A DNA stretch of 64,000 bases from Saccharopolyspora phatthalungensis. GTDB lineage: Bacteria > Actinomycetota > Actinomycetes > Mycobacteriales > Pseudonocardiaceae. Location of the stretch: the NCBI RefSeq assembly GCF_014203395.1, contig NZ_JACHIW010000001.1:4323501-4387500 (forward strand), written 5' to 3'. The notes under the pieces were generated by a model. The model worked only from the letters and a program-made list of their open reading frames with translations, was not told the origin of the DNA and did not search any database. Positions 4,803-32,716 of the stretch are shown here, in pieces. The number at the start of each line of letters is the position of its first letter. Positions within the stretch are counted from its first letter, which is position 1. The position numbers were made by a program, and so were the translations under genes.

Positions 4803-5150
4803 TTGTTGGAGCGCTACGTGTTGCAGCACTTCCGCGGCACGTCGGTTGGCCAGATCGACCCGAAGGCAGTGGAGGACTTCGCTACGGCGCTCGCAACCCG
4901 CAAGCGCCCACTCGCGCCCCGGGCGCTGAAGCACGCGTGGTCGGTGTTCGACCGGGTGTTGCGGTACGTCGTCCGGCACGACGCATTGCCCGCGCGAACC
5001 CGGTTGACCGTACGTATAACGCCCTGGGCGGCCACGGGTCCGGCGACGAAACCCCGTTTGAACCGCACCCGCTCACCCCGGCTCAGCTCGGGGCCATGCT
5101 GGCGCACGTTGAGGCGCGGGCCCGATCGACGCCTTGGCGCTGAAAGTGTT
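4803..5150 (+). pseudogene. Tyrosine recombinase relic B, frameshifted
   Basis: The first frame reads like an integrase SAM-like core-binding domain (L-E-R-Y-V-L-Q-H-F-R-G, then R-V-L-R-Y-V-V-R-H-D-A-L). The match then moves to another frame, which contains N-P-V-D-R and later P-F-E-P-H-P-L-T-P-A-Q-L, the usual linker into the catalytic domain. A further shift near 5125 is needed to continue. The catalytic Arg, His and Tyr are absent. The reading frame is therefore broken at least twice and the gene is dead. Confidence 0.65.
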
Positions 5151-5560
5151 GGCATGCCGGTAAGCCCACGGTGATAGCGGAAGATCGTGCGCAACCCGGC
5201 CGCAGTCAACGGCTTGCCCCGGTTCGGCCCCTTGGCCACGAGAAACAGGCGGGCGCTTGCGGATTCGGGCCGTTCGGCCAGCAGATACACCTGGATCACC
5301 GAGGCGACGTCGGCATCCAGCGGCCCGGCGTTCCCGCTGGCCCTTACCGACCACCCGCAGCCATCGGCCGCCGATATCGGCGTCAACGACGTCCAGGCCC
5401 AGCACCTCGGCGGAACGCAGCCCGCAATACAGCATCAAGCCCGCGATCGCCCGGTCCCGCCACGCATGAAAACTCGCCAGAAGCTCCGCCGCATCCGACT
5501 GCGATAGCGCCGTGGGCAGACGACGAGGCTCCCGGAGCCGAAGCGACGAACGGGTTTTCG
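5151..5560 (-). pseudogene. Tyrosine recombinase relic C, frameshifted
   Basis: On the minus strand one frame contains R-D-R-A-I-A-G-L, then L-Y-C-G-L-R-S-A-E-V-L, which holds the first catalytic Arg of a XerC/D-like recombinase, and then V-V-G-K-G-Q-R-E-R-R. The frame then shifts to one reading P-L-D-A-D-V-A-S-V-I and G-P-N-R-G-K-P-L-T. The H-x-x-R box and nucleophilic Tyr are missing because the homology ends at the junction with relic B near 5150. It differs from relics A and B, so at least three recombinase genes contributed to this scar. Confidence 0.7.
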
Positions 5561-5762
5561 GCCGACGGACGGTGTGCGCGAGCATACCGCTGCGCTCACC
5601 CGCTACCCGCCAGGGCCTCCCATCTGTGTCTTCCCCGTGCGGATGCTCCTATCTTGGATAGAAAGTTGGCACCGGCGCGATCCCCTCGGACCATGCGCTT
5701 CGTGTCGCTGGTGATCCCAAGATCGCGCCGTACGGGCAAACGGGATTACGCCCCAATGCGGC

Positions 5763-18444: not shown

Positions 18445-19148
18445 GTTGCGATCCTCATCGGCCCCGTAGGGCCGATGCCACCGCTTCGCAATCTTGTCGG
18501 CGTCGACCTTGGCGAGGTTGCGATCCTCATCGGCCCCGTAGGGCCGATGCCACCACTGCTGGTGCGGGTTGAGCTGGCGGAGCTTGGCCTTGTTGCGATC
18601 CTCATCGGCCCCGTAGGGCCGATGCCACTTCGGTGCGCCGCCACGGGATGTGATCGACCGAGCAGTTGCGATCCTCATCGGCCCCGTAGGGCCGATGCCA
18701 CTCGAGGGTGAGCATGCCCGGTGTCGCCGCCCCCGACCAGTTGCGATCCTCATCGGCCCCGTAGGGCCGATGCCACTGATCACGGGCGTGGCATGACCAG
18801 CCATCAACGAGAGGTTGCGATCCTCATCGGCCCCGTAGGGCCGGATGCCACCCCCGAGACCAGATGGGGGCCCAGGCATGAGCAACGTCGTTGCGATCCT
18901 CATCGGCCCCGTAGGGCCGATGCCACACCAGCCATCAACGACATGACCAGCCATCAACGAGAGGTTGCGATCCTCATCGGCCCCGTAGGGCCGATGCCAC
19001 TAGCCATCTCATCGGCCACGGCCTGCCTGGACGACAGGTTGCGATCCTCATCGGCCCCGTAGGGCCGATGCCACTGGACAGGCCGGTGGACACCACCGTG
19101 GACGCGTCCACGTTGCGATCCTCATCGGCCCCGTAGGGCCGATGCCAC
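18445..19148 (-). CRISPR. CRISPR array 1, type I-C associated: 10 repeats, 9 spacers
   Basis: Ten copies of a 37-nt repeat at 18445, 18517, 18592, 18665, 18740, 18814, 18890, 18964, 19038 and 19112, with 35-38 nt spacers. On the plus strand the repeat begins GTTGCGATCCTCATCGGCCC and ends GGGCCGATGCCAC. On the minus strand it has a 9-bp stem (CATCGGCCC/GGGCCGATG, loop TACG) followed by AGGATCGCAAC, an 11-nt tail of the size of a Cas5c-made 5' handle. The copy at 18814 has one extra G. The homologous leader lies at the right end, so transcription should run leftward and new spacers enter at 19112. Spacers at 18777 and 18927 share their 21 repeat-proximal bases. Confidence 0.98.
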
Positions 19149-19300: not shown

Positions 19301-19497
19301 GGCTGGCGCTGGTGACCGGTGATGTGGCCTCTGGGCTCATCGTGTGTCCGGGCGGTGCGTCTTTTCGTGTGGGGATCGCGGGATGGTTCTTCTTTTGTCG
19401 GGGGTCGGTGCTAAGACGTTTCCGGTCACATGGCGATGGCTGTTTGTGCGGTCAACGTCAGTAGGGAACCGCCTTCGACGATTCTGGGGAGAACCCG

Positions 19498-21708
19498 ATG
19501 TGGGCGCATAGTGCCAACATGAACGGGCAGTGGCATGCGTTGTCGGATCATGCTCGTGCTACCGCTTTGCTGGCGGAGCGGTTCGCGTCTGCGTTTGGCG
19601 CGGGTGAGTTGGGACATGCCCTCGGGCTCTTTCATGACGCGGGGAAGGGACGCGGGTGCTGGCAGGAAGGTTTGCTGAAGGCCGGCGAGCACAAGGGTCC
19701 GGTTGGGACCCCGCACAAGGATTTGGGGGCGAATCTGCTGCGTGCGGCTGCGGGTCCGGCGGCGATGGCGATTTTGGGACATCACGGTGGGCTGACTGAA
19801 CTCGATGAGCTGCGCGATCTTTCTGGGGCGCGGGGTGACGATGAAGCGGTACAGGCATTCCTTGGTGAGGTTGAGGAAGCCGCTCGGGTTCTTGAGCTGC
19901 CGCCGGGCTCGTTGTTGCCGGGAAACTGGCGTCGATCGAATCTGGTTGCCGAGTTGGGTATTCGCCTTGCTTTTTCCGCGCTGGTCGATGCCGATCATCT
20001 CGACACGGCGGCGCACTTCGACGGGCTCCCGGAGGCGCATGTGCGGCCGGATGCTGACATGGCCGACCTGCGTGACCGGTTCGAGTTGGAACGCAAGACA
20101 ATGCTGGCTGGCCGGGAGTCTTCTCCTATCGACGCGCTTCGTGAAGGCGTCTACCAACGCGCTATCGAGCACGCCGCCGGCGGGACTGGCATCTACCGGA
20201 TGCCTGCCCCCACAGGGGTGGGCAAGACACTCAGTGCCGCCGGTTTTGCGCTGCATCATGGTGCGGAGCACGGCAAGAATCGGGTCATCGTGGCGGTCCC
20301 GTTCATCACGGTGACTGAGCAGAACGCACAGGTCTACCGCTCGATGCTGGGTCCGGACGCGGTGCTCGAACACCACTCTGGCGTGCGGCCACCGGAAAAG
20401 GGCGAGCATGAGCGCAGGCTGCGTTCGGCTGTCGAGAACTGGGATAGCCCGTTCGTCGTCACGACCACGGTCCAGCTGTTCGACTCGCTGTTCAGCCGCA
20501 AGCCGGCGCAGATGCGCAAGCTGCACCGACTCGCCAACTCGGTGGTGGTGCTCGATGAGGTGCAGGCGTTGCCGCTGCGGGTGCTGACACCGATCCTCGA
20601 TGCCTTGCGCACGCTGTCCGAGGAGTTCGGTACCACCGTGTTGCTCACGTCGGCGACACAACCTTCCTTCCATGCTCTGGACATCTGGAACGGGCTGGAG
20701 GTTCAGGATGTGGTCGACGAGCCGCGAGCGTTGTTTCAGCGCTTGAGGCGGGTGCGTTACCGGTGGTGGCTGGAGCCGAAGCCGGAATTGGCCGAGGTCG
20801 CTGCGAAAGCCGCCGAGCACGAGCAGGTGTTGGTCGTGGTCAACACGACCGCCGATGCCCGCGGTATCTACCGGCAGTGGAGAGATGACGGAGTGCGCAA
20901 TGCGTTTCACCTGTCCACGCGGATGTATCCGGAACACCGGCGGACCGTGCTGAAGAAGGTGCGCGGCCTGTTGGCCGTGGGCGAACCGGTGCGGCTGGTG
21001 TCGACGCAGCTCATCGAAGCGGGAGTGGACGTCGACTTCCCGGTGGTGTACCGGGCTTTCGCCCCGGCGGAGGCGCTGCAGCAGGCAGCGGGCCGGGCTA
21101 ACCGCGAGGGGAAGGGCGCGACAAAAGGTCTGGTCGTGGTGTTCGATGCCGAGGACATGACGTCCCCCGCCGGGTACGGGATCGGAGTTAAGGTCACCAG
21201 CGAGGTCTTCGGCCCGCAAAGCGATTCCCGCACGGTGGACCCCGACGATCTTGACGCGCTCGACGCGTACTACCGCACGCTCTACAGCAGGGGTAACACG
21301 GAAAACGGCAGGCGAGCACGAGAGATTCAGAGCAACCGCGCGAAGCTCGACTACACGGCGGTGGCCGAGGGTCCGCTGCGTGCGGGGGGAGCGGGCCAGG
21401 TCCGAGACGGCTCGCTGGCGTTTCGGATGCTCGATGACGACACGGTCCCGGTTGTCGTGACCGACCATGAGGGGCCGACTCCCGCTGCGCAGTTGCTGCG
21501 TCGATTCCAGCAAGCTCCCGAAGAAGGACGTTGGTTGCTGCGCGAGCTGCAGCCTTACGTGGTGGCGCTGCCGAGGCGGCTCCTGGACGTTCCGGCGATC
21601 CGGGCGTTCTGCTCGCCGCGCATGGGTGATCTGCATGAATGGATCGGCCCGTACCACGAGGCATACGGCATCGACACATCCCACTCCCAAGAACAGGAGG
21701 TCTGGTGA
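19498..21708 (+). CDS. cas3: Type I-C Cas3 nuclease-helicase
   Basis: Signature effector of type I systems: an HD nuclease fused to a superfamily 2 helicase, recruited by Cascade to degrade target DNA; 736 residues. HD domain: W-A-H-S at the start, H46-D47 in L-F-H-D-A-G-K, and G-H-H-G-G. Helicase: Walker A A237-P-T-G-V-G-K-T244, D353-E-V-Q box II, S385-A-T box III, and the C-terminal Q-A-A-G-R-A-N-R box VI. All key residues are present and the length is normal. GGGGAGA lies before the ATG. The stop overlaps a GTG (GTGA at 21705), where cas5c would normally begin, but here about 710 bp intervene before the real cas5c start. Confidence 0.97.
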   Translation: MWAHSANMNGQWHALSDHARATALLAERFASAFGAGELGHALGLFHDAGKGRGCWQEGLLKAGEHKGPVGTPHKDLGANLLRAAAGPAAMAILGHHGGLTELDELRDLSGARGDDEAVQAFLGEVEEAARVLELPPGSLLPGNWRRSNLVAELGIRLAFSALVDADHLDTAAHFDGLPEAHVRPDADMADLRDRFELERKTMLAGRESSPIDALREGVYQRAIEHAAGGTGIYRMPAPTGVGKTLSAAGFALHHGAEHGKNRVIVAVPFITVTEQNAQVYRSMLGPDAVLEHHSGVRPPEKGEHERRLRSAVENWDSPFVVTTTVQLFDSLFSRKPAQMRKLHRLANSVVVLDEVQALPLRVLTPILDALRTLSEEFGTTVLLTSATQPSFHALDIWNGLEVQDVVDEPRALFQRLRRVRYRWWLEPKPELAEVAAKAAEHEQVLVVVNTTADARGIYRQWRDDGVRNAFHLSTRMYPEHRRTVLKKVRGLLAVGEPVRLVSTQLIEAGVDVDFPVVYRAFAPAEALQQAAGRANREGKGATKGLVVVFDAEDMTSPAGYGIGVKVTSEVFGPQSDSRTVDPDDLDALDAYYRTLYSRGNTENGRRAREIQSNRAKLDYTAVAEGPLRAGGAGQVRDGSLAFRMLDDDTVPVVVTDHEGPTPAAQLLRRFQQAPEEGRWLLRELQPYVVALPRRLLDVPAIRAFCSPRMGDLHEWIGPYHEAYGIDTSHSQEQEVW

Positions 21709-21884
21709 CCACGCTCGGTCAACCTCCGACGGCCTGGAGCAAATGCTCAGCTCCTGCCTTCCCTCTGCAGCCGCAAATCGGCGGCACCGAACCAGACGTT
21801 CGATGCCGCCGAGCCTTTGGTCGGCGTTCCGCCGTCCGGAAGCTGATTGCGATCCTCACCAGCTCTCGCCTCGTGCCGACCTGA
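21705..21884 (+). CDS. Possible small ORF overlapping the cas3 stop
   Basis: A 59-codon frame starts at a GTG overlapping the cas3 TGA (GTGA) and has AGGAGG at the right distance, so ribosomes leaving cas3 would probably enter it. The product is Arg/Pro rich with no recognised domain. The antisense of this frame is the proposed guide RNA, so the coding reading may be accidental, or it may be a decayed remnant of a former cas5 5' end. Low confidence that it is a functional protein. Confidence 0.2.
   Translation: MTTLGQPPTAWSKCSAPAFPLQPQIGGTEPDVRCRRAFGRRSAVRKLIAILTSSRLVPT
21780..21880 (-). ncRNA. CRISPR repeat-like guide RNA (CreA/CreR-like), putative
   Basis: Read on the minus strand, 21880-21846 resembles one CRISPR repeat. 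It keeps an imperfect hairpin with a GAGA loop and ends AGGATCGCAAT, 10 of 11 bases identical to the array handle AGGATCGCAAC. A 35-nt pseudo-spacer (21845-21811) follows, then a strong hairpin (21810-21780: GGCGGCA/TGCCGCC plus an inner CGAAC/GTTCG) that begins GGCGGCATCG, close to the start of the array repeat. This is the psi-repeat, psi-spacer, psi-repeat layout of CreA antitoxin and CreR regulatory guides. TAAGGT at 21889-21884 is a possible -10 just upstream. Transcription and Cas5c processing are predicted only. Confidence 0.6.
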
Positions 21885-21934
21885 CCTTAACTTGGCGAGC
21901 TCGGCAAGCAGGCGGCCCGCCCGTGTCTAATGAC

Positions 21935-21955
21935 TCCGCCTTCCGGCAGCTGGAA
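21935..21955 (-). promoter_or_regulatory. Self-target of the repeat-like guide, with TTC PAM
   Basis: On the minus strand TTC (21955-21953) is followed by CAGCTGCCGGAAGGCGGA (21952-21935). The pseudo-spacer of the nearby guide begins CAGCTTCCGGACGGCGGA. They agree at 16 of 18 positions and differ only at 6 and 12, the bases that are flipped out and not read in Cascade crRNA. TTC is the usual type I-C PAM. The match stops after position 18, so binding without cleavage is expected. On the plus strand the site lies just upstream of TAACAT (21968-21973), a possible -10 box. Confidence 0.65.
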
Positions 21956-22052
21956 CCTAGGCGCTGATAACATGATCACCAGCCGGGGGAAAGGCGACTA
22001 TTTCGGGAATGGCGGGTGACGAGAGTAAACCTGCGGTTCAGGCTTCAGTTGG

Positions 22053-22277
22053 ATGCGGATGTTAAGCCGAATGCCGAGTTCGGGTGCACACGTACGGACG
22101 AATGTGCGGCAAGTAGTGGAGGCACTCCGGTGCGCGGGGAAGTTTACGGCCGCTGGCTCACCCATACAGTGGCGCAAGCGCAACAAGGCGACTGTATTGC
22201 TCAGCGCTGCTCTCGGGAGCGGTGAATTGCTGACCGTTCTCATCCTGCTGCGGCTGAGCGACTGGTGGGGACAGTAG
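22053..22277 (+). CDS. Hypothetical small ORF in the cas3-cas5c gap
   Basis: A 74-codon frame downstream of the putative repressed promoter. The product is basic in its first half (R-K-R-N-K) and has a hydrophobic stretch near the end (A-T-V-L-L-S-A-A-L and L-L-T-V-L-I-L-L), so a membrane-active peptide is conceivable. The ribosome site is weak and no family is recognised. Two other tiny frames (ATG at 21972, 15 codons; ATG at 22009, 18 codons) lie between the target site and this frame. Any of them, or an RNA, could be the regulated product. Listed as a candidate only. Confidence 0.2.
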   Translation: MRMLSRMPSSGAHVRTNVRQVVEALRCAGKFTAAGSPIQWRKRNKATVLLSAALGSGELLTVLILLRLSDWWGQ

Positions 22278-22300
22278 GTTTCCCGAGTTGGCAGGCATCG

Positions 22301-22330
22301 GCCTGACGTTGTGAGGGCACAACGTCAGGC
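22301..22330. terminator. Perfect 13-bp hairpin upstream of cas5c
   Basis: GCCTGACGTTGTG, loop AGGG, CACAACGTCAGGC: a perfect 13-bp stem with a 4-nt loop, with no T-run after it. It could end transcription of the upstream small-ORF region before cas5c, or be an operator or RNA element controlling cas5c-cas8c-cas7c. Confidence 0.6.
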
Positions 22331-22417
22331 ATGTGTTGTAAAACCAGGCGCATGCCCGGCGACGAGCCCTGGGCTATAGCGCCGACACATCAAGGTTTCA
22401 CGAGAACAGGAGGTTTG

Positions 22418-23098
22418 GTGACCCAGGAATTGCCAGTGTCTAGTGAAGGCGCACCACCTGTAAGCGTGCAGGTCTGGGGGCCGGGTGCGTTGTTCACCCG
22501 TCCGGAGTTGAAGGTGGAGCGCGTTTCTTACCCGATGATGACGCCGACCGCTGCTATTGGTGTTCTCGAAGCGATTTTCTGGAAGCCGGAGTTCGATTGG
22601 CGGCCGGTGGCGATCGATGTGCTCAACCCGATCCGGCAGTTCACCCAGCGCCGTAATGAGACCATCGATCTGGCTTCGGTGGCGGATGCGGCGCTGCGGG
22701 GGCGGCGGGTCGACACGGCCGAGAACCGTACGCAGCGTAACTCGGTGTGTCTGCGTGATGTTTCCTACCGCATCCATGCGCATGTGGAGTTGCGTGAGCA
22801 TGCCACGAAGAAGGCCGCGGCCTATCGGGATCAGTTCCGGCGGAGGGTCGAGCGCGGGCAGTGCTTTCACCAGCCTTATCTGGGCACGCGCGAGTTCACC
22901 GCGTATTTCGGTATGCCGGATGATCGCCCGGCCATCGCGGTCGATGCCGATCTGGGGGTGATGCTGCACGGGGTGCGTCATCCGAAGAAGGGGGACAAGA
23001 GCACGGTCACGTTTTCGTGGTTCACCGCTCGTCTTGAGCGGGGTCGGTTGCACGTCCCGCGTTCGGGGATCACCTCCGCTGGGATGGGGGCGCTGTAG
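22418..23098 (+). CDS. cas5c: Type I-C Cas5, crRNA-processing endoribonuclease
   Basis: RAMP-fold subunit of 226 residues. In type I-C, which lacks Cas6, Cas5c cuts the pre-crRNA and then stays on the 5' handle in Cascade. The start V-T-Q-E-L and the following Q-V-W-G-P-G-A-L-F-T-R-P-E and S-Y-P-M-M-T-P-T-A-A-I-G stretches are the family N-terminus. The C-terminal half carries a G-T-R-E-F motif and G-V-M-L-H-G-V. I chose GTG 22418 because AGGAGG precedes it; the ATG at 22331 begins inside the hairpin region and lacks homology. The stop shares one base with cas8c (TAGTG). Confidence 0.93.
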   Translation: MTQELPVSSEGAPPVSVQVWGPGALFTRPELKVERVSYPMMTPTAAIGVLEAIFWKPEFDWRPVAIDVLNPIRQFTQRRNETIDLASVADAALRGRRVDTAENRTQRNSVCLRDVSYRIHAHVELREHATKKAAAYRDQFRRRVERGQCFHQPYLGTREFTAYFGMPDDRPAIAVDADLGVMLHGVRHPKKGDKSTVTFSWFTARLERGRLHVPRSGITSAGMGAL

Positions 23099-24915
23099 TG
23101 CTGGTGCAGCGTTTGGTCGAGTATGCCCGGGAGAACAGTGACAGTGCGCCGTTTCACCGGGAACGTGAGTTCGTGTGGCGGCTCGACCTCTATAGCGACG
23201 GTCGGCCGGCCAGGTTGACCGGCATCCGGGAACCGGATGCGAAAGGCAAACTGCGTGGCCAGCGGCACACGACTCCTGCGGTGACCCGAACGGTCGGGGT
23301 GGCGCCTCAGCTCGGAGCCGACGACATCCAGTACGTGTTCGGGTGGGGCGATGACACCACCAAGCCGGAGCGCGTCGCCCAGTGCCACGAGCATTTCGTG
23401 TCGCTGATCTCGGCATGGGCGGGCCAGGCCGACGATGATCACGCGGCTTTGAGCGTGCGGGAGTTCTACCGGCAGCAGGACTACATTCGCTGGGAGCGTC
23501 CTGCCGACTACGGGGCCAAAGACGGTGTGCTCATCGCCGTCGATGAGCAGTTGATCATCAAGCGGTCTTCGTTGGTGCGGTTCTGGGCCGATGAAGTCAT
23601 CCGCCGCAAGGGCGGCAAGAATGGTGGCTTCGGGCTGTGCCTGGCGTGCGGGACCGAAAGTCCGCTGGTGGACTCGATTCCCGGCACGGTCCCGAAACGG
23701 CTCGTGCCGGGTGCGGGCAACGATGTCGCGCTGGTCAGCGTGAACGCGCAGGTTTTCGGCTACGGGCTCACCACCGGTCTCCAGCACACACCGATCTGCT
23801 TCACGTGTGGAAATGCGGTCAGCGTCGCTTTGACGCACCTGCTGAGCTCAGAGCACGCGACGAAACTGCCCGGCCAGGACAGCGTGATGGTCTGGTGGGT
23901 CCTGGGCGCATCACCCAACGACATCTTCGATGTGATGCCCCGCAACGCCGATCCCGGTGCGGTGAGCCGGCTGCTGAAGGAACTGTGGTCCGGTGAGCTG
24001 GACAGGGCCGCGGAACTCGCCGAGCAGTGGGACAGCCAGGAGCGGTTCTGCTCACTGAGCCTCGGCGGGAACTCCTCGCGAATCATGGTGCGCGAATGGA
24101 TCGACATGCCGCTGGCGGCGGTCGCCCGCAACTTGGGGCGTTGGTATGACCACATGCGCATAGCGTCCGGCTGGCATGACGAGCCCGTCTCGCACGGCTT
24201 GTGGCACCTGGTACTGGCCACCGGCCGGTGGGAGTCGGGAGGCGACGGCGCCCCAGGTCGTTACGCCGAGATCGGCGCGAAGTCGGGTCGCCGCCCGGAG
24301 CACATTCAGCGCGATCTGCTGGCCCGCGCGTTGCGCGGCGTCCCGCTACCCCGCTCGGTGCTGCACCACGTACTGCGCCGCATCGCTTCCGACGGGCACG
24401 TTGACGCGCCCCGCGCAGGGCTGCTGCGCCTGGCGCTGTGCCATCCCCGAGACAAGGAGCCCCGCGTGTCCCCAGGACTTGACGAAGAATCGCATGACAC
24501 CGCCTACGTCTACGGTCGGGTCTTCGCGCGTTTGGAGGAGATCCAGTACCTAGCACACGGCAAGGAAGTCAACACCACCTTCGGGGATCGCTTCCTGGCC
24601 GGAGCCATTGGAAACCCCACGCCGGCAGTGATGGCCGGACGCAAACTCGCCTCGGCATGGCTGAACAAGATCCGCCGGAATCCCAAAACCTCCCGCGCCC
24701 TGCGCCGCCTGCGCGAGGATCTCGACCAGCTGCTGCATCTGGTCGACCACACCGCGCCTTTGACCGGCTACCTCCCCCCGGAGCAGCAAGCCCGTTTCGT
24801 CCTGGGCTACCACCAGCAACGCGCACATGACACACAGCAGCGCCGGGCCCGCAAGGCCGCCGACGGCGACGACCCGGAGCGCGGCGACGACGGCGGACCC
24901 GACGAAAACGCCTGA
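23098..24915 (+). CDS. cas8c: Type I-C Cascade large subunit
   Basis: Large subunit Cas8c (Csd1 family), 605 residues, which recognises the PAM and opens target DNA. The central C181-L-A-C184 and C234-F-T-C237 pairs form the expected zinc ribbon, and the C-terminal third is rich in helices, as in Csd1, where an internal start often yields a Cas11c small subunit. The GTG start overlaps the cas5c TAG by one base. The C-terminus is charged (D/E/R rich) without clear motif. A good fit in length and order for I-C. Internal translation of Cas11c is inferred from the family, and I did not identify its start. Confidence 0.93.
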   Translation: MLVQRLVEYARENSDSAPFHREREFVWRLDLYSDGRPARLTGIREPDAKGKLRGQRHTTPAVTRTVGVAPQLGADDIQYVFGWGDDTTKPERVAQCHEHFVSLISAWAGQADDDHAALSVREFYRQQDYIRWERPADYGAKDGVLIAVDEQLIIKRSSLVRFWADEVIRRKGGKNGGFGLCLACGTESPLVDSIPGTVPKRLVPGAGNDVALVSVNAQVFGYGLTTGLQHTPICFTCGNAVSVALTHLLSSEHATKLPGQDSVMVWWVLGASPNDIFDVMPRNADPGAVSRLLKELWSGELDRAAELAEQWDSQERFCSLSLGGNSSRIMVREWIDMPLAAVARNLGRWYDHMRIASGWHDEPVSHGLWHLVLATGRWESGGDGAPGRYAEIGAKSGRRPEHIQRDLLARALRGVPLPRSVLHHVLRRIASDGHVDAPRAGLLRLALCHPRDKEPRVSPGLDEESHDTAYVYGRVFARLEEIQYLAHGKEVNTTFGDRFLAGAIGNPTPAVMAGRKLASAWLNKIRRNPKTSRALRRLREDLDQLLHLVDHTAPLTGYLPPEQQARFVLGYHQQRAHDTQQRRARKAADGDDPERGDDGGPDENA

Positions 24916-24966
24916 CCTCCGATCGACTGCAGACCCACGGATTTTTTGAGGAAAGAAAGGTCTTCC

Positions 24967-25857
24967 ATGACTCTCGACGCTCACCTGGACCCGGCTGTGC
25001 GCCACGACATGGTGTTCTTGTTCGACGTCACCGACGGCAACCCCAACGGCGATCCTGACTTCGGCAACCGGCCACGCATGGACGAGGAATCCGGGCACGG
25101 TTTGGTCACCGATGTTGCGCTCAAGCGCAAGATCCGTAACACCTTGCCGCTGGCCGCCGGCGATGACCCGCGCTACGGGATCTTCGTCGAAGCCGGGCAC
25201 GCGCTGAACACGCGGCTCGGTGAGACCATGAGCGCCAACAAGATCGACCGCAAGAAGAAGCGGCTCACCGAGGAGGAGCTGCGCACCGCCCGGTCATGGC
25301 TGACCGAGCGCTACGCCGATATCCGTCTGTTCGGCGCGGTGCTGTCCACCGGCGAGACCAAAGCCCTCGGCCAGATCTACGGCCCGCTGCAGGTGACCAA
25401 CGCCCGCAGTTTCCACCCGGTGATGCCGCAGCAGCACACGATCACTCGCGTCACCCAAACCAAGGCTGAGGACATCGAGAAGGGCGAATCCACCGAGATG
25501 GGCGGCAAGTGGACAGTCCCTTATGGACTGTACAAGGCCGAGATCTACTACTCTGCCGCTCGCGGGACGCAGACCGGTGTGGACGGCCGGGACTTCGAGC
25601 TGCTGTACCGGACGCTGGAAATGATGCTCGACCACGACCGCTCCTCGGCCCGGGGCACGATGACCGCACGGGGACTGTATGTGTTCAGCCACGACAACGC
25701 CTTCGGCAACGCCCCAGCCCACAAACTCACCGAGCGCATCACCGTGCGATTGAGCGAACAGCTCAGCGGGCCACCGCGCTCCTTCGGCGACTACGTCGTA
25801 TCCGTCGACGAAGATGGCCTGCCCTCGGGCATCACCATGACCAAACTCCTCTCCTGA
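24967..25857 (+). CDS. cas7c: Type I-C Cas7 backbone subunit
   Basis: Csd2/Cas7c, 296 residues; several copies form the crRNA-binding backbone of Cascade. The N-terminal L-F-D-V-T-D-G-N-P-N-G-D-P-D motif and later L-F-G-A-V-L-S-T-G and G-L-Y-V-F-S-H-D-N-A-F-G-N are typical of the family. The ATG at 24967 has GAAAGG six bases upstream; an in-frame TTG at 24946 would add seven residues with no better support. It follows cas8c after 51 bp and precedes cas4 by 10 bp. Confidence 0.95.
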   Translation: MTLDAHLDPAVRHDMVFLFDVTDGNPNGDPDFGNRPRMDEESGHGLVTDVALKRKIRNTLPLAAGDDPRYGIFVEAGHALNTRLGETMSANKIDRKKKRLTEEELRTARSWLTERYADIRLFGAVLSTGETKALGQIYGPLQVTNARSFHPVMPQQHTITRVTQTKAEDIEKGESTEMGGKWTVPYGLYKAEIYYSAARGTQTGVDGRDFELLYRTLEMMLDHDRSSARGTMTARGLYVFSHDNAFGNAPAHKLTERITVRLSEQLSGPPRSFGDYVVSVDEDGLPSGITMTKLLS

Positions 25858-25867
25858 GCGGGCTGAG

Positions 25868-26503
25868 GTGGACGAAGGAGCCGACGAAGCGGCGTGGACG
25901 AGTATTCCGGTCTCGGCGATCGAGCACTTCGCCTACTGCCCCCGGCAAGCCGCGCTGATCCACCTCGATCGCTACTTCGCCGACAACACCGACACCCAAC
26001 GCGGGCACTTCGCGCACGAAGTCGTCGACTCCGGTGGCCCCAGCGTCTCGCGCACCGGGATACCCACCTGGAGCTCACTGGAAATCAGCGACTCCGAGCT
26101 CGGGGTGCACGGCGTCTGCGATGTCGTCGAGTTCCACCAGGGCGAGCCGGTTCCCGTGGAACACAAGTCGGGCAGCTACCGGCCCGGCAGCGCCGCGGAC
26201 CTGCAAGTGGCGGCGCAGGTGCTGTGCCTGCGCCGGATGTTCTCAGCGGCGGTGCCGCACGGTGTGATCTTCGCCGGTCGGCACCGCCGCCGCTACGAAG
26301 TCGTGGTCGACGACGCGCTGGAGCAACGGTTGCGCGCCGTGCTCGCTCGCCTGCGGCAGGTGTTTCGAACCGGAGCACTACCCGCTCCGGTCAATGACGC
26401 ACGGTGCGATCGCTGCTCGCTACGGGAGGGCTGCATGCCCTCCGTACTCGTGGACGCCTCGGCACTGTTCGTACCGCAGCCGTTGGGACGGTGGGATGAC
26501 TGA
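25868..26503 (+). CDS. cas4: Cas4 nuclease for prespacer selection
   Basis: RecB-like nuclease of 211 residues with a [4Fe-4S] cluster; in type I-C it joins Cas1-Cas2 to trim prespacers and check the PAM. Cluster cysteines are Cys24 (Y-C-P-R-Q) and Cys180, Cys183, Cys189 (C-D-R-C then G-C). The nuclease motif is Asp85 with Glu98-x-Lys100. It begins with GTG at 25868, and its 3' end overlaps the cas1 start by 8 bp. Confidence 0.92.
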   Translation: MDEGADEAAWTSIPVSAIEHFAYCPRQAALIHLDRYFADNTDTQRGHFAHEVVDSGGPSVSRTGIPTWSSLEISDSELGVHGVCDVVEFHQGEPVPVEHKSGSYRPGSAADLQVAAQVLCLRRMFSAAVPHGVIFAGRHRRRYEVVVDDALEQRLRAVLARLRQVFRTGALPAPVNDARCDRCSLREGCMPSVLVDASALFVPQPLGRWDD

Positions 26504-27494
26504 GCTATTGCGCACGCTGTTCGTCACGACTCCAGGCACGAGCCTGCATCTGGAAGGCGACACCGTGCGCATTCACCATCCCGAACGGCCGGGACGCAAC
26601 ATCCTGCCTTTGGTGCGCATCGAGCAACTCGTGGTGTGGAGGGGCGTCGACGTCAGCAACGAGCTGCTGCTGCGCTGCACCGACGACCAACGCGGGATCA
26701 CCTGGCTGTCCCGCAACGGACGGTTCCTCGGCCGCGTGGGTGGTGCGCAGACAGGCAATCCGTTGCTGCGGCTGGAACAGGTCCGCGCCTACGACGATCC
26801 GCACCGCAGACTAACCATCGCCAAGGCAGTGGTGGCCGGGAAACTGCAGAACTACCGCCAACTGCTGCTGCGTATCGCCCGCGACGCCGACGAACCACGC
26901 AAGACCGAAATCCGCGCCGTGGCCCAGCAGCACAGCGAAGCACTGGCAGCGGTGGCTGCTAGTGCTTCGCTGACCGAACTTCTCGGCATCGAAGGGATGG
27001 CCGCGCGCAGCTACTTCCAAGCGATGCCGATGCTGGCGCGGGGCGTTCCGCAGGGACGTACCCGCCGGCCACCACAAGATCCTTTCAACTGTGTTCTCTC
27101 CTTCGGCTACGGAATGCTGCGCGTGGCTGTCGTGGGCGCGCTGGAGCAGGTCGGGCTGGATCCCTACATCGGCTACCTGCACGGCGTGCGCTCAGGCAAA
27201 CCATCGCTGGCCTTGGACCTGATGGAAGAACTGCGACCACTGTTGGTGGACCGTCTTGTGCTGGCATTGTTCAACCGAAAGAAAATCACCGCCAAACACA
27301 CCATGACCGATCCCGGCGGTGGAGTCACACTCACCGAGGAGGGACGCAAACTCGTGCTCAACGAGTGGTCGCAAGCACGGGAACGACTCTGGAAACACAG
27401 CGGCGTGCAACACGACGTACCGGCCGCACTGCTCCCGCTAGTCCCGTCTTTCGCACATGAGGATGGTTGGGGCGGGAACGGTGATTCGTCTTGA
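26496..27494 (+). pseudogene. cas1: Cas1 integrase, 3' end disrupted by an IS element
   Basis: Spacer-acquisition integrase. The metal ligands are present: Glu166 (G-I-E-G), His229 (Y-L-H-G-V-R) and Asp241/Glu244 (D-L-M-E-E). Native sequence runs to His321; then 11 residues encoded by the end of an inserted element replace the true tail. The missing 3' part survives at 29179-29271, beyond the element. The remaining 332-residue protein is close to normal length (about 345-350 expected), so it may keep partial activity, but the C-terminal residues usually needed for stability or Cas4/Cas2 contact are lost. Start ATG 26496 overlaps cas4. Confidence 0.9.
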
Positions 27495-29178
27495 TCATCT
27501 TATCGTGGCTGGATGCGGGAACGACGGCGTCGGCAACCGATTGCGTATGGCGGGCCGAGTGTGGAGAAGATGCTGGGTGCGTTGCCGGTGGTGGCCGAGT
27601 TCTGCCGTCGCCTCGACCTGGCCGGGATCATCGACCGGGCCTGCCCGGTCAGGCGGGACGTGGCGATCCTGACGCACGGGCAGGTGATCGAGGCGCTGGT
27701 CGCGAACCGGTTGACGTCACCGGCACCGCTGCTGCGTGTCACGGACTGGGCGCGATCGTGGTCGGTTGAGGAAGTGCTGGGTATCGATCCCGCCGCACTC
27801 AACGACGACCGGATCGGCCGTGCTCTGGACGCGATCGCGCCGGAGTTGGATCGCATCGTCGGATCCGTTGGGGCGCAAGCGATCACCGGGTTCGGGCTCG
27901 ACGTGTCCCGATGCCATTGGGACATGACCTCGATCTCGCTGTACGGCGCTTACGAACACGCCGATCCCGGCTATGCGGCCCCACGATTCGGTCATCCCAA
28001 AGACCGGCGCCCGGACCTCAAGCAGATCCAGGCCGGGCTGGCGGTGACCGGGGATGGCGGGGTGCCGGTCTTGCACCGGTCCTACGACGGTGGCGCCGGC
28101 GAGGTGGCTCAGGTGGTGGGCGCGATGACTGCACTGAAAGACCTCGCCGGTCCGAGAGAATTCCTGCTTGTCGGCGACTCCAAGCTGGTCTCCTACGACA
28201 ACCTGCATGCCATGATCAGCGCCGGGGTGACGTTCATCGCCCCGGCGGCGAAAACTTATGTCGGCTCTGCCGAACTGGCCGCGCTCGACCCGCCGACGGC
28301 GGCCGTGGTGGACTACGTGGCCGAGCGGGACGCGAACACACCGGCCGATCAGCGGGGCACCTGGCGGGTGGTCGAGGACGCCATCACCGTGCCCGGTAAG
28401 CGGAAGAAGGACTCGGTACTGCGGCTGCGGCGGGTGTTCGTGCACTCCTCGGCCCGTGCCGGGGCCGCGGCCACCGCACGGGCCCGCAAGCTCGACCGCG
28501 CCACGGGTGACCTCGACCGGCTGATCCGCGGGCTCGGCTCCCGGCACTACCCGACCGAGCAGGCCGTGACCGACCGGATCACCGCCATCGCCCGTGACCG
28601 CCGGGTGAAGGCATACCTGCGCAGCGAGGCCGGCACCGACCCGGTCACCGGCAAACCCACCCTGACATGGTGGTTCGACAAGGACGCGCTCGATGCCGAG
28701 GCCGCCACCGACGGCTGGTACGCACTGCTGACCAACCTGCCCGCCGACGTCACCGCAGCCGAGGTCCTGATCCGCTACAAGGGCCAGGAAGTAGTGGAAC
28801 GCCGCTATTCGGCGTTCAAAGGCCCACTGGCGGTCGCACCGATGTTCCTCAAAACCAACCGGCGTATCACCGCCCTGATCACCGTGATCTGCCTGGCCCT
28901 ACTCATCTTCTGCCTCATCGAACGCGCGGTGCGAACCGCGATCGCTCCCCAGGTCAAGATGCCCGGACTCTACCCCGGTCAGCAGGCCAAGCCCACCGGC
29001 CGCCTGATCTTCCAAGCGCTGGCCGGCATGCGGCTGATTCCGGCCGGCGCCGGGCAGCCGGCGATCATCCCGCAACCCACCCCAGCCCAGGCCCGGCTCC
29101 TCGACCTACTTGCCGTCGACCCCACCCAACCACCATGATCAACCAGCCCGGCATACCCGGGCTCCTCCCACACTCACC
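27460..29178 (+). mobile_element. IS1634-type insertion sequence inside cas1
   Basis: The element is bounded by CATG on both sides (27456-27459 and 29179-29182); removing it and one CATG restores an uninterrupted Cas1 reading frame. It is 1719 bp with one transposase. The ends are only weakly inverted (left AGGATGGTTGGGG, right reverse-complement GGTGAGTGTGGGA). The intact transposase and clean duplication suggest a fairly recent insertion. Confidence 0.85.
27513..29138 (+). CDS. IS1634 family transposase
   Basis: DDE transposase of 541 residues. The N-terminus has G-P-S-V-E-K-M-L, then a long DDE domain with G-L-D-V-S-R-C-H-W-D and L-L-V-G-D-S-K-L-V-S-Y, and the C-terminal Y-K-G-Q-E-V-V-E-R-R-Y-S-A-F-K-G containing the catalytic Glu, then F-L-K-T-N-R-R-I-T-A-L-I-T-V. 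It appears full length and has no frameshift. Starts at ATG 27513 and is the only gene of the element. Confidence 0.93.
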   Translation: MRERRRRQPIAYGGPSVEKMLGALPVVAEFCRRLDLAGIIDRACPVRRDVAILTHGQVIEALVANRLTSPAPLLRVTDWARSWSVEEVLGIDPAALNDDRIGRALDAIAPELDRIVGSVGAQAITGFGLDVSRCHWDMTSISLYGAYEHADPGYAAPRFGHPKDRRPDLKQIQAGLAVTGDGGVPVLHRSYDGGAGEVAQVVGAMTALKDLAGPREFLLVGDSKLVSYDNLHAMISAGVTFIAPAAKTYVGSAELAALDPPTAAVVDYVAERDANTPADQRGTWRVVEDAITVPGKRKKDSVLRLRRVFVHSSARAGAAATARARKLDRATGDLDRLIRGLGSRHYPTEQAVTDRITAIARDRRVKAYLRSEAGTDPVTGKPTLTWWFDKDALDAEAATDGWYALLTNLPADVTAAEVLIRYKGQEVVERRYSAFKGPLAVAPMFLKTNRRITALITVICLALLIFCLIERAVRTAIAPQVKMPGLYPGQQAKPTGRLIFQALAGMRLIPAGAGQPAIIPQPTPAQARLLDLLAVDPTQPP

Positions 29179-29271
29179 CATGTGCGAAACACCCGGCTAG
29201 TGCAGGCACGACTGTTCGCGCGCTACCTGCGCGGAGATCAGCCCGCCTACGCACCGTGGGTGGCGAACTGA
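29179..29271 (+). pseudogene. Severed 3' end of cas1
   Basis: Reads H-V-R-N-T-R-L-V-Q-A-R-L-F-A-R-Y, then L-R-G-D, then A-P-W-V-A-N and stop. This is the usual Cas1 C-terminus and continues directly from His321 of the 5' part once the inserted element is removed. The stop is one base before the cas2 GTG. Confidence 0.85.
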
Positions 29272-29272
29272 C

Positions 29273-29563
29273 GTGGAAATGCTCATCACCTATGACGTCG
29301 ACACCAGCACACCAGCCGGTGCACGCAGACTCCGCAGAGTCGCCAAAGTCTGCGAAGCATACGGACTGCGCGTGCAAAAGTCCGTCTTCGAAGTCGTGTG
29401 CACCGAGGTGGACTGGCTACTCATGCAGCAACGCCTGCTCGACGTCATCGACGCCGAGCACGACAGCATCCGCGTCTACAAACTGCACCACGGCGCCCTC
29501 GCCAAAGCCGAGCATCTCGGCCACTCCCCACCAGCACCACACCACACTCCCTTGGTCTTCTAG
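29273..29563 (+). CDS. cas2: Cas2
   Basis: Ferredoxin-fold partner of Cas1 in spacer integration, 96 residues. The first strand L-I-T-Y-D-V-D-T contains the conserved Asp. R-V-A-K-V-C-E-A-Y-G-L-R-V-Q-K-S-V-F-E and R-V-Y-K-L are typical Cas2 segments. GTG at 29273 follows the cas1 stop by one base, showing that cas1-cas2 were coupled before the IS insertion; ATG 29279 is an alternative. Its transcription now depends on reading through the element or a promoter within it. Confidence 0.93.
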   Translation: MEMLITYDVDTSTPAGARRLRRVAKVCEAYGLRVQKSVFEVVCTEVDWLLMQQRLLDVIDAEHDSIRVYKLHHGALAKAEHLGHSPPAPHHTPLVF

Positions 29564-29799: not shown

Positions 29800-32716
29800 G
29801 TTGCGATCCTCATCGGCCCCGGAGGGCCGATGCCACGCGAGCAGGAACACGCTCAGGCGCAAGCATTCCGGCAGGTTGCGATCCTCACCGGCCCCGGAGG
29901 GCCGATGCCACGCGAGCAGGAACACGCTCAGGCGCAAGCATTCCGGCAGGTTGCGATCCTCACCGGCCCCGGAGGGCCGATGCCACGCCTGCTCAACGAT
30001 CCGATGTACATGGCCTTCTACCCGGTTGCGATCCTCATCGGCCCCGGAGGGCCGATGCCACCTCTCGGGACACACTGGTCCCGTAGTCGGAATTCGGTTG
30101 CGATCCTCATCGGCCCCGGAGGGCCGATGCCACTTGCAGGTCTTGCCCTCGTACCCGGCTCCGTCGGAACAGTTGCGATCCTCATCGGCCCCGGAGGGCC
30201 GATGCCACAACGCGGGCGAGGTACTCGTCCGGGACGTCGGGGTGGTTGCGCTCCTCATCGGCCCCGGAGGGCCGATGCCACAGATCGCCAGCACGACGAT
30301 CACGACGGCGATGGCAAGGTTGCGCTCCTCATCGGCCCCGGAGGGCCGATGCCACTTTGCGGCGTCCTGGACGCTGTAGAAGCGGTGCACGTTGTTGCGA
30401 TCCTCATCGGCCCCGGAGGGCCGATGCCACATCGACGTCCAGGTTGACGCCGACATAGCCCGCGCTGTTGCGATCCTCATCGGCCCCGGAGGGCCGATGC
30501 CACCAGTAGGCAGACAGGGGAGGTGATGTCACGATGGTTGGGTTGCGATCCTCATCGGCCCCGGAGGGCCGATGCCACCAAACAGATTGACGAGCTGCAC
30601 CTAGCGCTTGATGTCGTTGCGATCCTCATCGGCCCCGGAGGGCCGATGCCACGCCAGATGACCCGGAGTGGGTGTACGTCTCGTGGCAGCTGTTGCGATC
30701 CTCATCGGCCCCGGAGGGCCGATGCCACCTGGTGATCCAGTGGTGGGTTTCGTTCAACAGCGTGTTGCGATCCTCATCGGCCCCGGAGGGCCGATGCCAC
30801 TTCCAGTCGATCCACTGGGCGTCCTCGGTCAGCATCATCCGGTTGCGATCCTCATCGGCCCCGGAGGGCCGATGCCACCACTCCGCATACCGCGGGTGCC
30901 CTTCCCCTTTGTGTCCGTTGCGATCCTCATCGGCCCCGGAGGGCCGATGCCACTCCCGCGCTGGTGCGCCTGACCAGGTAGCCAGGAGTTGCGATCCTCA
31001 TCGGGCCCCGGAGGGCCGATGCCACATTGGTTCGCCAGCGGACCGTACAAGGCCGGGGAGTGGTTGCGATCCTCATCGGCCCCGGAGGGCCGATGCCACC
31101 TCCGACCGAACCCTCACCGCGGCACTCTACGACCTGGTTGCGATCCTCATCGGCCCCGGAGGGCCGATGCCACGCCGCGTCCAGTGCTGTGGCGGAGTCC
31201 CCCAGCTTGTTGCGATCCTCATCGGCCCCGGAGGGCCGATGCCACCCCAGTGCGGCCAGCATTCCTTCCGCGTCCAGTGCAGTTGCGATCCTCATCGGCC
31301 CCGGAGGGCCGATGCCACCAGGCGCGTACAGGTCGTAGCTGCGGCCCTTCTTGTGGTTGCGATCCTCATCGGCCCCGGAGGGCCGATGCCACCAGCAGGT
31401 CGTCGACAGCACCCGTCGCCTGAGGTGTTGCGATCCTCATCGGCCCCGGAGGGCCGATGCCACCATGCGGCACCTCGGTCCGCGTCTCCCAGTACGAGGG
31501 TTGCGATCCTCATCGGCCCCGGAGGGCCGATGCCACAACTGCGCGCGTCGGACTTCGCTCGGCTTCCCGTCCCGGTTGCGATCCTCATCGGCCCCGGAGG
31601 GCCGATGCCACCTAACCATTCCGCTGACCTCAACCCGCCAATCAAGAGAGGTTGCGATCCTCATCGGCCCCGGAGGGCCGATGCCACTCGACACATCCCC
31701 GGAGGACGCGGCGGTCGCGCTGGAGTTGCGATCCTCATCGGCCCCGGAGGGCCGATGCCACCACTGATGTCGACACCACGGCGGTGGGCGGCGTGCCAGT
31801 TGCGATCCTCATCGGCCCCGGAGGGCCGATGCCACTCACGGGGGCCGGTCCCCGTGGACTTCTCGATCAGGTTGCGATCCTCATCGGCCCCGGAGGGCCG
31901 ATGCCACCATGCGGCACCTCGGTCCGCGTCTCCCAGTACGAGGGTTGCGATCCTCATCGGCCCCGGAGGGCCGATGCCACAACTGCGCGCGTCGGACTTC
32001 GCTCGGCTTCCCGTCCCGGTTGCGATCCTCATCGGCCCCGGAGGGCCGATGCCACCTAACCATTCCGCTGACCTCAACCCGCCAATCAAGAGAGGTTGCG
32101 ATCCTCATCGGCCCCGGAGGGCCGATGCCACTCGACACATCCCCGGAGGACGCGGCGGTCGCGCTGGAGTTGCGATCCTCATCGGCCCCGGAGGGCCGAT
32201 GCCACCACTGATGTCGACACCACGGCGGTGGGCGGCGTGCCAGTTGCGATCCTCATCGGCCCCGGAGGGCCGATGCCACTCACGGGGGCCGGTCCCCGTG
32301 GACTTCTCGATCAGGTTGCGATCCTCATCGGCCCCGGAGGGCCGATGCCACCACTCAGGACGAACACCGAGGAGATCCCCATGATCCGGTTGCGATCCTC
32401 ATCGGCCCCGGAGGGCCGATGCCACACACCGTCGCGACCTTGAGTCGGTCGTCCCAATCCAGTTGCGATCCTCATCGGCCCCGGAGGGCCGATGCCACGG
32501 TCCGCACGCCGCGCCAGTCGCACTTAACACAGCGTTGCGATCCTCATCGGCCCCGGAGGGCCGATGCCACCCGGCGGAGCGCCGCGCTCGCCCCGCGGCC
32601 CCTGGGGTTGCGATCCTCATCGGCCCCGGAGGGCCGATGCCACCTCACGGGTCAGGCCCATCTGAACCGCCTGGTCCATGTTGCGATCCTCATCGGCCCC
32701 GGAGGGCCGATGCCAC
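29800..32716 (-). CRISPR. CRISPR array 2, type I-C associated: 40 repeats, 39 spacers
   Basis: Forty 37-nt repeats from 29800 to 32716 with mostly 34-39 nt spacers (one of 41, before 30842). The repeat differs from array 1 at one loop base (CGGA instead of CGTA). Variants cluster at the left: CTCACCGG at 29875 and 29950, GCGCTCCTC at 30245 and 30319; the repeat at 30988 has an extra G. The first two spacers are identical. Six spacers in 31464-31907 are repeated in the same order in 31908-32351, so about 32 spacers are unique. The homologous leader is on the right, so transcription and growth proceed from there. Confidence 0.98.
31464..32351. repeat. Tandem 444-bp duplication of six CRISPR units
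   Basis: 31464-31907 and 31908-32351 each contain the same six spacer-repeat units in the same order, starting with the spacer CATGCGGCACCTCGGTCCGC. The shift between copies is exactly 444 bp at every unit I compared. Explained by unequal recombination between repeats. Confidence 0.95.

Follow-up and report, generated by a model that had tools for sequence, protein, structure and literature searches.

A solitary crRNA-like guide lies on the minus strand between cas3 and cas5c in the type I-C locus of Saccharopolyspora phatthalungensis, within the 64,000-nucleotide stretch of DNA analysed here (the window), and its spacer matches a TTC-flanked site in the same gap. Going by the letters alone, the guide/target pair is almost certainly real, and the element is probably, by analogy, the type I-C counterpart of CreR, that is, a one-spacer crRNA-like guide that would turn Cascade into a repressor of its own genes. 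The features of the locus are as follows:

18445-19122, minus strand: CRISPR array 1, first to last handle (handle search)
19498-21708, plus strand: cas3 (profile matches)
21685-21710, plus strand: left copy of a 26-nt junction duplication, at the end of cas3 (repeat comparison)
21778-21812, minus strand: 3' hairpin of the guide RNA, a terminator or cap or a rebuilt second repeat (inverted-repeat search, fold)
21811-21845, minus strand: pseudo-spacer (guide) of 35 nt, identical to the target over nt 1–18 apart from positions 6 and 12
21846-21880, minus strand: degenerate type I-C repeat (psi-repeat), with its handle AGGATCGCAAT at 21856-21846
21884-21889, minus strand: -10-like hexamer (TAAGGT) a few nt before the psi-repeat, putative guide promoter (by eye)
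21935-21952, minus strand: guide target, matched part of the protospacer, which at full length would extend to 21918
21953-21955, minus strand: TTC PAM of the target
21968-21973, plus strand: -10-like hexamer TAACAT, 12 nt from the PAM and facing cas5c, putative targeted promoter
22053-22277, plus strand: 74-aa hydrophobic ORF between target and cas5c (ORF list)
22301-22330, plus strand: terminator-like hairpin with a perfect 13-bp stem, between the targeted site and cas5c
22398-22423, plus strand: right copy of the junction duplication, in the start region of cas5c, 713 bp from the left copy
22418-23098, plus strand: cas5c, the expected repeat-processing nuclease (profile matches)
23098-24915, plus strand: cas8c (profile matches)
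24946-25857, plus strand: cas7c (profile matches)
25868-29563, plus strand: cas4, cas1, an IS1634 transposase gene and cas2 (NCBIfam models)
29800-32690, minus strand: CRISPR array 2, first to last handle (handle search)

The NCBIfam models find Cas3, Cas5c, Cas8c, Cas7c, Cas4, Cas1 and Cas2, a complete type I-C set; Cas5c, Cas8c and Cas7c exceed the type I-C cut-offs, the general Cas1, Cas2, Cas3 and Cas4 models exceed theirs, and the Cas1c model stays under its own (342.1 vs. 385 bits). PADLOC concurs for the four effector proteins submitted, with a best Cas7 model that spans I-B and I-C. The processing of crRNA repeats is an established role of Cas5c. The IS1634-family transposase gene (27513-29138) splits cas1 from cas2, and array 2 contains an exact 300-bp direct duplication of repeats and spacers (31427-31726 and 31871-32170, 444 bp apart). 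In many relatives, cas3 runs into or directly adjoins cas5c, and in others the two are apart; the guide element looks as if it had been inserted at the cas3–cas5c junction, because the 26-nt stretch is duplicated there, with 23 of 26 nt identical between the copies.

The psi-repeat, read on the minus strand from 21880 to 21846, has the sequence GTCGGCACGAGGCGAGAGCTGGTGAGGATCGCAAT, and its handle agrees with the array handle AGGATCGCAAC at 10 of 11 positions, the last base alone being different. Against an expectation of 0.06, the window contains 49 copies of the motif AGGATCGCAAY, of which 48 belong to the two arrays and one to the psi-repeat, and outside the arrays of the 8.54-Mb assembly GAGGATCGCAAY is found at the psi-repeat and at one other place only. 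The initial annotation had described a minus-strand repeat-like unit with a 10/11 handle, followed by a 35-nt pseudo-spacer, and both are borne out, the former as the only occurrence of the motif outside the arrays of the window. The hairpin that it ascribed to this unit is present in the isolated psi-repeat (−11.6 kcal/mol) but is weak beside that of the array repeat (−19.4 kcal/mol), and it is absent from the predicted fold of the whole guide RNA, which counts against the CreR-like reading. The second hairpin, described at first as rebuilt from a repeat, is a strong inverted repeat with 15-nt arms that are 93% complementary; it is more likely, on comparison of sequences, to be a terminator or cap, because 18 folded relatives have strong structures at the same place that are unlike their own repeats, as judged by eye. 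Predicted energies for the 19 guides folded (those of the window, L032 and L033 among them) run from −24 to −43 kcal/mol, often as a single strong hairpin, for a 70-nt segment that starts 25 nt past the handle, taken without a shuffle control. By eye, the hairpin of the window retains GNGGCATCG from the start of the repeat at 8 of 9 bases, and it may therefore derive from a second repeat. A search of Rfam over 21600-22500 gave four weak matches and none above a gathering score, the best reaching 21.1 bits vs. a cut-off of 82.

The target, which lies 107 bp from the guide and outside the span first described, was missed by the initial annotation. Pseudo-spacer nucleotides 1–18 correspond to 21952-21935, and pairing is lost past nucleotide 18; when both strands of the window were scanned with these 18 nucleotides, 21952-21935 was the sole non-self site matching all 15 non-sixth positions. 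Across the assembly, CAGCTNCCGGANGGCGGA is matched perfectly at the guide and at the target and nowhere else. No second genomic target was found: the sole site with one mismatch (position 9) is flanked by ACC rather than TTC, and for the two-mismatch genomic sites the flanks of those with a locus were examined by a partial pattern. Position 6 of a guide is not read by Cascade. Thus, the window has the features of CreR in the form of a repeat with the array handle outside the arrays and beside cas genes, together with a partly complementary spacer and a PAM.

The arrangement recurs in other type I-C loci. Cas5c loci were drawn from 397 genomes of the order, 200 genomes of a second family and a named genome collection (best 80 of 586), giving 110 loci including the window and 106 after the removal of four exact duplicates, with near-identical sets retained. 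A match required a handle outside the arrays with at most two mismatches from the locus's own array handle, or from a default handle in loci without a readable array or handle, and a TTC site within 700 bp that agreed with the spacer at 9 or more of the 10 seed positions. Under this rule, 22 of the other 105 type I-C loci have the guide/target arrangement, which with the window makes 24 matches in 23 of 106 loci; all ten seed positions match in 15 of these and nine in the other 9, and guide sequences vary among loci, each matching its own locus. Of these matches, 23 are placed either in the cas3–cas5c gap or no more than 402 nt ahead of cas3, the L093 match, counted in the gap, sitting at the extreme end of the cas3 match and the second L109 match lying elsewhere. 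No match was found under the rule in 83 of the 106 loci, which counts against the CreR-like reading, as does the fact that TTC matches outside Actinobacteria (L075, L093, L108 and L109) reach nine seed positions at most. Also against it, the 278-bp cas3–cas5c gap of Amycolatopsis thailandensis (L045) is without a guide, and its array repeat agrees with that of the window over the 31 nt recovered. L032 and L033 retain the guide, with about eight seed positions paired, and were left uncounted under the threshold; L037 has a repeat-like guide with an exact handle upstream of cas5c (minus strand, 7487), which matches its target weakly, at 8 of 10 seed positions, and is followed, by eye, by a classic-looking terminator hairpin with a T-run. 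Conservation in related type I-C loci, which had been proposed as a check, is therefore confirmed as to layout but confined to a minority of loci, and of the suggestion of a new instance, perhaps a new class, the presence of such a guide in a complete type I-C locus stands, whereas its singularity does not. DNA homology was tried as evidence of recurrence and rejected: a 751-bp region compared with 200 relatives gave itself and six matches of 23–40 bp, and the two that were fetched are unrelated, sitting among genes that, to judge from their ORFs, resemble thiamine genes.

Several controls bear on these counts. With shuffled handles (shuffles near the real handle were skipped), 20 rounds gave 16 matches, one of them with ten seed positions. 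A search free of any PAM, run on 85 repeat-like candidates from 54 loci, gave 20 sites with ten of ten seed positions within 500 nt, flanked by TTC in 15 cases, TTT in 3, TTG in 1 and AAC in 1. The TTT and TTG cases belong to L085, L092, L116 and L119 (Chloroflexi, Geobacteraceae and gammaproteobacterial MAGs) and the AAC case to L109; in the former four, the ten seed positions match a site on the same strand 22–38 nt upstream of the handle, and as this site shares bases with the upstream portion of the repeat itself, these cases could stem from a local duplication. When guides were scored against foreign regions, 0 of 380 pairs reached 9 of 10 (20 of 23 guides, L093, L109 and L133 being omitted), the own-locus scores in this comparison being high through selection. 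For the held-out set, 394 genomes from the class were searched and 15 had a Cas5c match, 13 of them not previously fetched, of which three were duplicates of earlier loci and 10 were new loci; the default handle was used in L145, L149, L152 and L156. The same rule found matches in 5 of these 10, with nine seed positions in L146 and ten in L150, L154, L155 and L157, all of them in the cas3–cas5c gap or 185–188 nt upstream of cas3 and none elsewhere.

Guide and target can also be followed through divergence. The 400 nt before cas5c were aligned for five related loci (L032–L035 and L061) and read by eye; the handle core ATCGCAAC is invariant in them. Seed positions 3–4 of the guide read TG, TG, CA, TG and TA, respectively, and the target agrees with the guide at these positions in each of the five; position 6 is mismatched in L035 and L061, and position 9 in L032, L033 and L035. 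As read from this alignment, changes at seed positions 3 and 4 of the guide are mirrored in the target. Such co-change provides a sequence-only test that is applicable to other subtypes.

CreR has been reported for types I-B, I-E and V-A in one review (PMC13131331), and RNA-guided autorepression for type I at large and type V-A in section 9 of another (PMC12737573). Like CreR, the window element is a crRNA-like guide beside cas genes with limited complementarity to a putative promoter region before cas genes; it differs in belonging to type I-C, with Cas5c in place of Cas6 or Cas12a, and in lying on the strand opposite the cas genes, whose repression would follow by analogy. Liu et al. 2023 is said to be the primary paper on CreR, and Shmakov et al. 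2023 reportedly predicted standalone repeats whose spacers partly match cas promoters, a likeness that the window element would share. In open-access titles and the starts of abstracts, no type I-C CreR or CreA with a target appeared among the matches listed, a scope outside which Shmakov et al. 2023 falls. For haloarchaeal CreA, the rule of seed positions 1–5 and 7–11 plus TTC is given in PMC8501985. CreA of CreTA is described for type I-F besides I-B. The window element shares with CreA the degenerate repeat, this seed, the TTC PAM and a near target among cas genes; it differs in that its pairing extends to 18 nt and its target is without a demonstrated or conserved toxin. Racrs are described as solitary repeat-like units of viruses and plasmids that mimic repeats, with one type I-C case tested; the window element is likewise a solitary repeat-like unit, but it has a guide and a matching target and lies within a host cas cluster rather than on a virus or plasmid remote from such genes.

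What the targeted site may control is suggested by its surroundings. On the cas strand, TANNNT follows GAA, the complement of the PAM, within 0–12 nt at 11 of 16 minus-strand targets vs. 15 of 250 nearby GAA sites, a count that includes the window and covers neither the six loci with plus-strand targets nor L093; the same stretches have one TANNNT on the opposite strand, and the nominal P is 1.2e-10 for loci that are not fully independent. Among the held-out loci, 1 of 3 minus-strand targets is positive, which counts against the CreR-like reading, and in the two that fail TANNNT begins at offset 13, beyond the 0–12 limit. Also counting against this reading are the result of a sigma-70 scan, in which no full promoter was found, the separate conserved motif that lies closer to the cas gene in some guide loci, and the terminator-like hairpin at 22301-22330, because it is placed between the targeted site and cas5c; the scan for such hairpins found 1 vs. 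0.5 expected in shuffles. In ten loci, reading toward the cas gene, the guide comes 35–89 nt after the target, and the cas gene itself is 158–471 nt from the target, so a promoter there may mainly drive the guide. The layout of the window is reversed, with the target facing cas5c at 466 nt and the guide on the opposite strand; the held-out locus L157 shares this layout and has its target about 60 bp before cas5c, which argues that the cas genes are the regulated ones. Because the guide matches a likely cas control region, the system probably turns itself down through its own DNA-finding machinery.

On this CreR-like reading, leftward transcription would start a short way upstream of 21880 and yield an RNA that ends at the hairpin 21812-21778, and Cas5c, given its known role, would recognise the degenerate repeat and leave the 11-nt handle. 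The complex of Cas5c, Cas8c and Cas7c with the guide would then bind the matching site 21952-21935 beside the TTC PAM; Cas3 would spare the DNA, as proposed because pairing goes no further than 18 nt and leaves out positions 6 and 12, and the complex would merely block the promoter facing cas5c, by analogy with CreA and CreR. Depletion of Cascade by crRNAs or anti-CRISPRs would lift the repression and yield more Cas protein.

A guide of CreA or CreR type in a type I-C system had been proposed at the outset, and its presence in a complete locus stands, while CreR is favoured over a CreA antitoxin because no convincing toxin was found under the target. If the guide instead repressed a small toxic RNA or peptide at about 21980-22330, so that loss of Cascade killed or arrested cells as in CreTA, the -10-like site that follows the target, and after it the 74-aa hydrophobic ORF and the terminator-like hairpin, would be accounted for, as would the seed and PAM rule that the guide shares with haloarchaeal CreA. 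That ORF, however, has no homologue among 5.8 billion proteins within the sensitivity of the search, no NCBIfam or PADLOC match and no ribosome site visible by eye, and its codon index is 0.46 vs. 0.63–0.75 for seven genes, which served together with dxs (misframed, and scoring 0.57) to construct the index. By eye, no mini-ORF of the haloarchaeal CreT kind, with a strong ribosome site and rare codons, was recognised, which leaves room for CreT of other kinds, such as that of type I-F; in a GTG ORF at 22016, an AGA and a GTA codon stand side by side, without a clear ribosome site. ORFs were listed for loci with a cas3–cas5c gap of 180–2200 bp, a scope that leaves aside those with the guide upstream of cas3, and small hydrophobic ORFs do occur in other guide-bearing gaps. 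The gaps of L033, L034, L061 and L127 (and of L032, by eye) have related small membrane ORFs that lie beyond the guide's target and are encoded on the strand opposite the cas genes; yet this Micromonosporaceae ORF looks unlike that of the window, has four database matches only and is absent from the list for L035, and the 80-aa hydrophobic ORF of L082, unrelated in appearance, overlaps its target rather than following it. In L157, moreover, only about 60 nt separate the target from cas5c. A small hydrophobic ORF as a conserved toxin was not supported by the database searches, and the addiction reading is unlikely, and less likely than the CreR-like one.

The ten loci with the psi-repeat 35–89 nt after the targeted site, and the strong structures found after the spacer, would also suit a self-limiting guide, whose target mainly controls synthesis of the guide RNA itself (or of a divergent short RNA) with little effect on the cas genes. 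The conserved motif mentioned above, described at the end of this text, points the same way: 20 of 60 loci have it no more than 200 nt ahead of cas3 or cas5c, four of them guide loci (L030, L048, L063 and, at cas3, the window). Against this, the window and L157 have their guide on the opposite strand, so that the targeted site faces cas5c without an intervening guide, and in L075 and L108 the target lies between the guide and cas5c; we regard such self-limitation as quite improbable. Least probable is a remnant of a shrunken CRISPR array, or a Racr, without regulatory function. A whole array does occupy the same cas3–cas5c site in Saccharopolyspora endophytica (L044), and a type I-C Racr is on record; a relic, on the other hand, is not expected to retain a genome-unique TTC-flanked match or guide/target co-change, and Racrs ride on viruses or plasmids, whereas the window element is inside host cas genes. 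The L044 array (about 5150-5650 of the oriented locus) has several repeats, some of them degenerate, and may resemble a precursor of the one-spacer element.

Returning to the CreR-like reading, a broader form of it can be put forward tentatively, at somewhat less than even chances: type I-C systems of several phyla may repeatedly have built guides, presumably cut by Cas5c, against the promoter region of their own effector genes, and since guide and target co-evolve, each lineage would have a private guide/promoter pair, in a reversed form in the window and L157. If this is true, the reversed, divergent form would uncouple the supply of guide from the repressed promoter and let cas expression report directly on how much Cascade is free. 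Type I-C crRNA processing relies on Cas5c, so autorepression, if it is shown in type I-C, would imply that guides made by Cas5c do regulatory work too; it would also offer ready lineage-specific guide/promoter pairs for probing how crRNA load and anti-CRISPR attack are sensed.

The conserved motif upstream of the cas genes, [TC]TGTC[AG]G-N10-TA, was counted over the 200 nt preceding cas3 or cas5c of actinobacterial loci, where its 20 of 60 compare with 8 of 4370 background tiles, several of the 20 being near-identical Actinopolyspora loci; in the window it lies at about 19394-19420, upstream of cas3. With a full TANNNT, it is found in 16 of 60 loci, the window not among them, vs. 7 of 4370 tiles. 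We take it to resemble the PafBC, or RecA-independent, DNA-damage promoter of actinobacteria, and if it is a promoter of this type, it would place type I-C cas genes under DNA-damage control.
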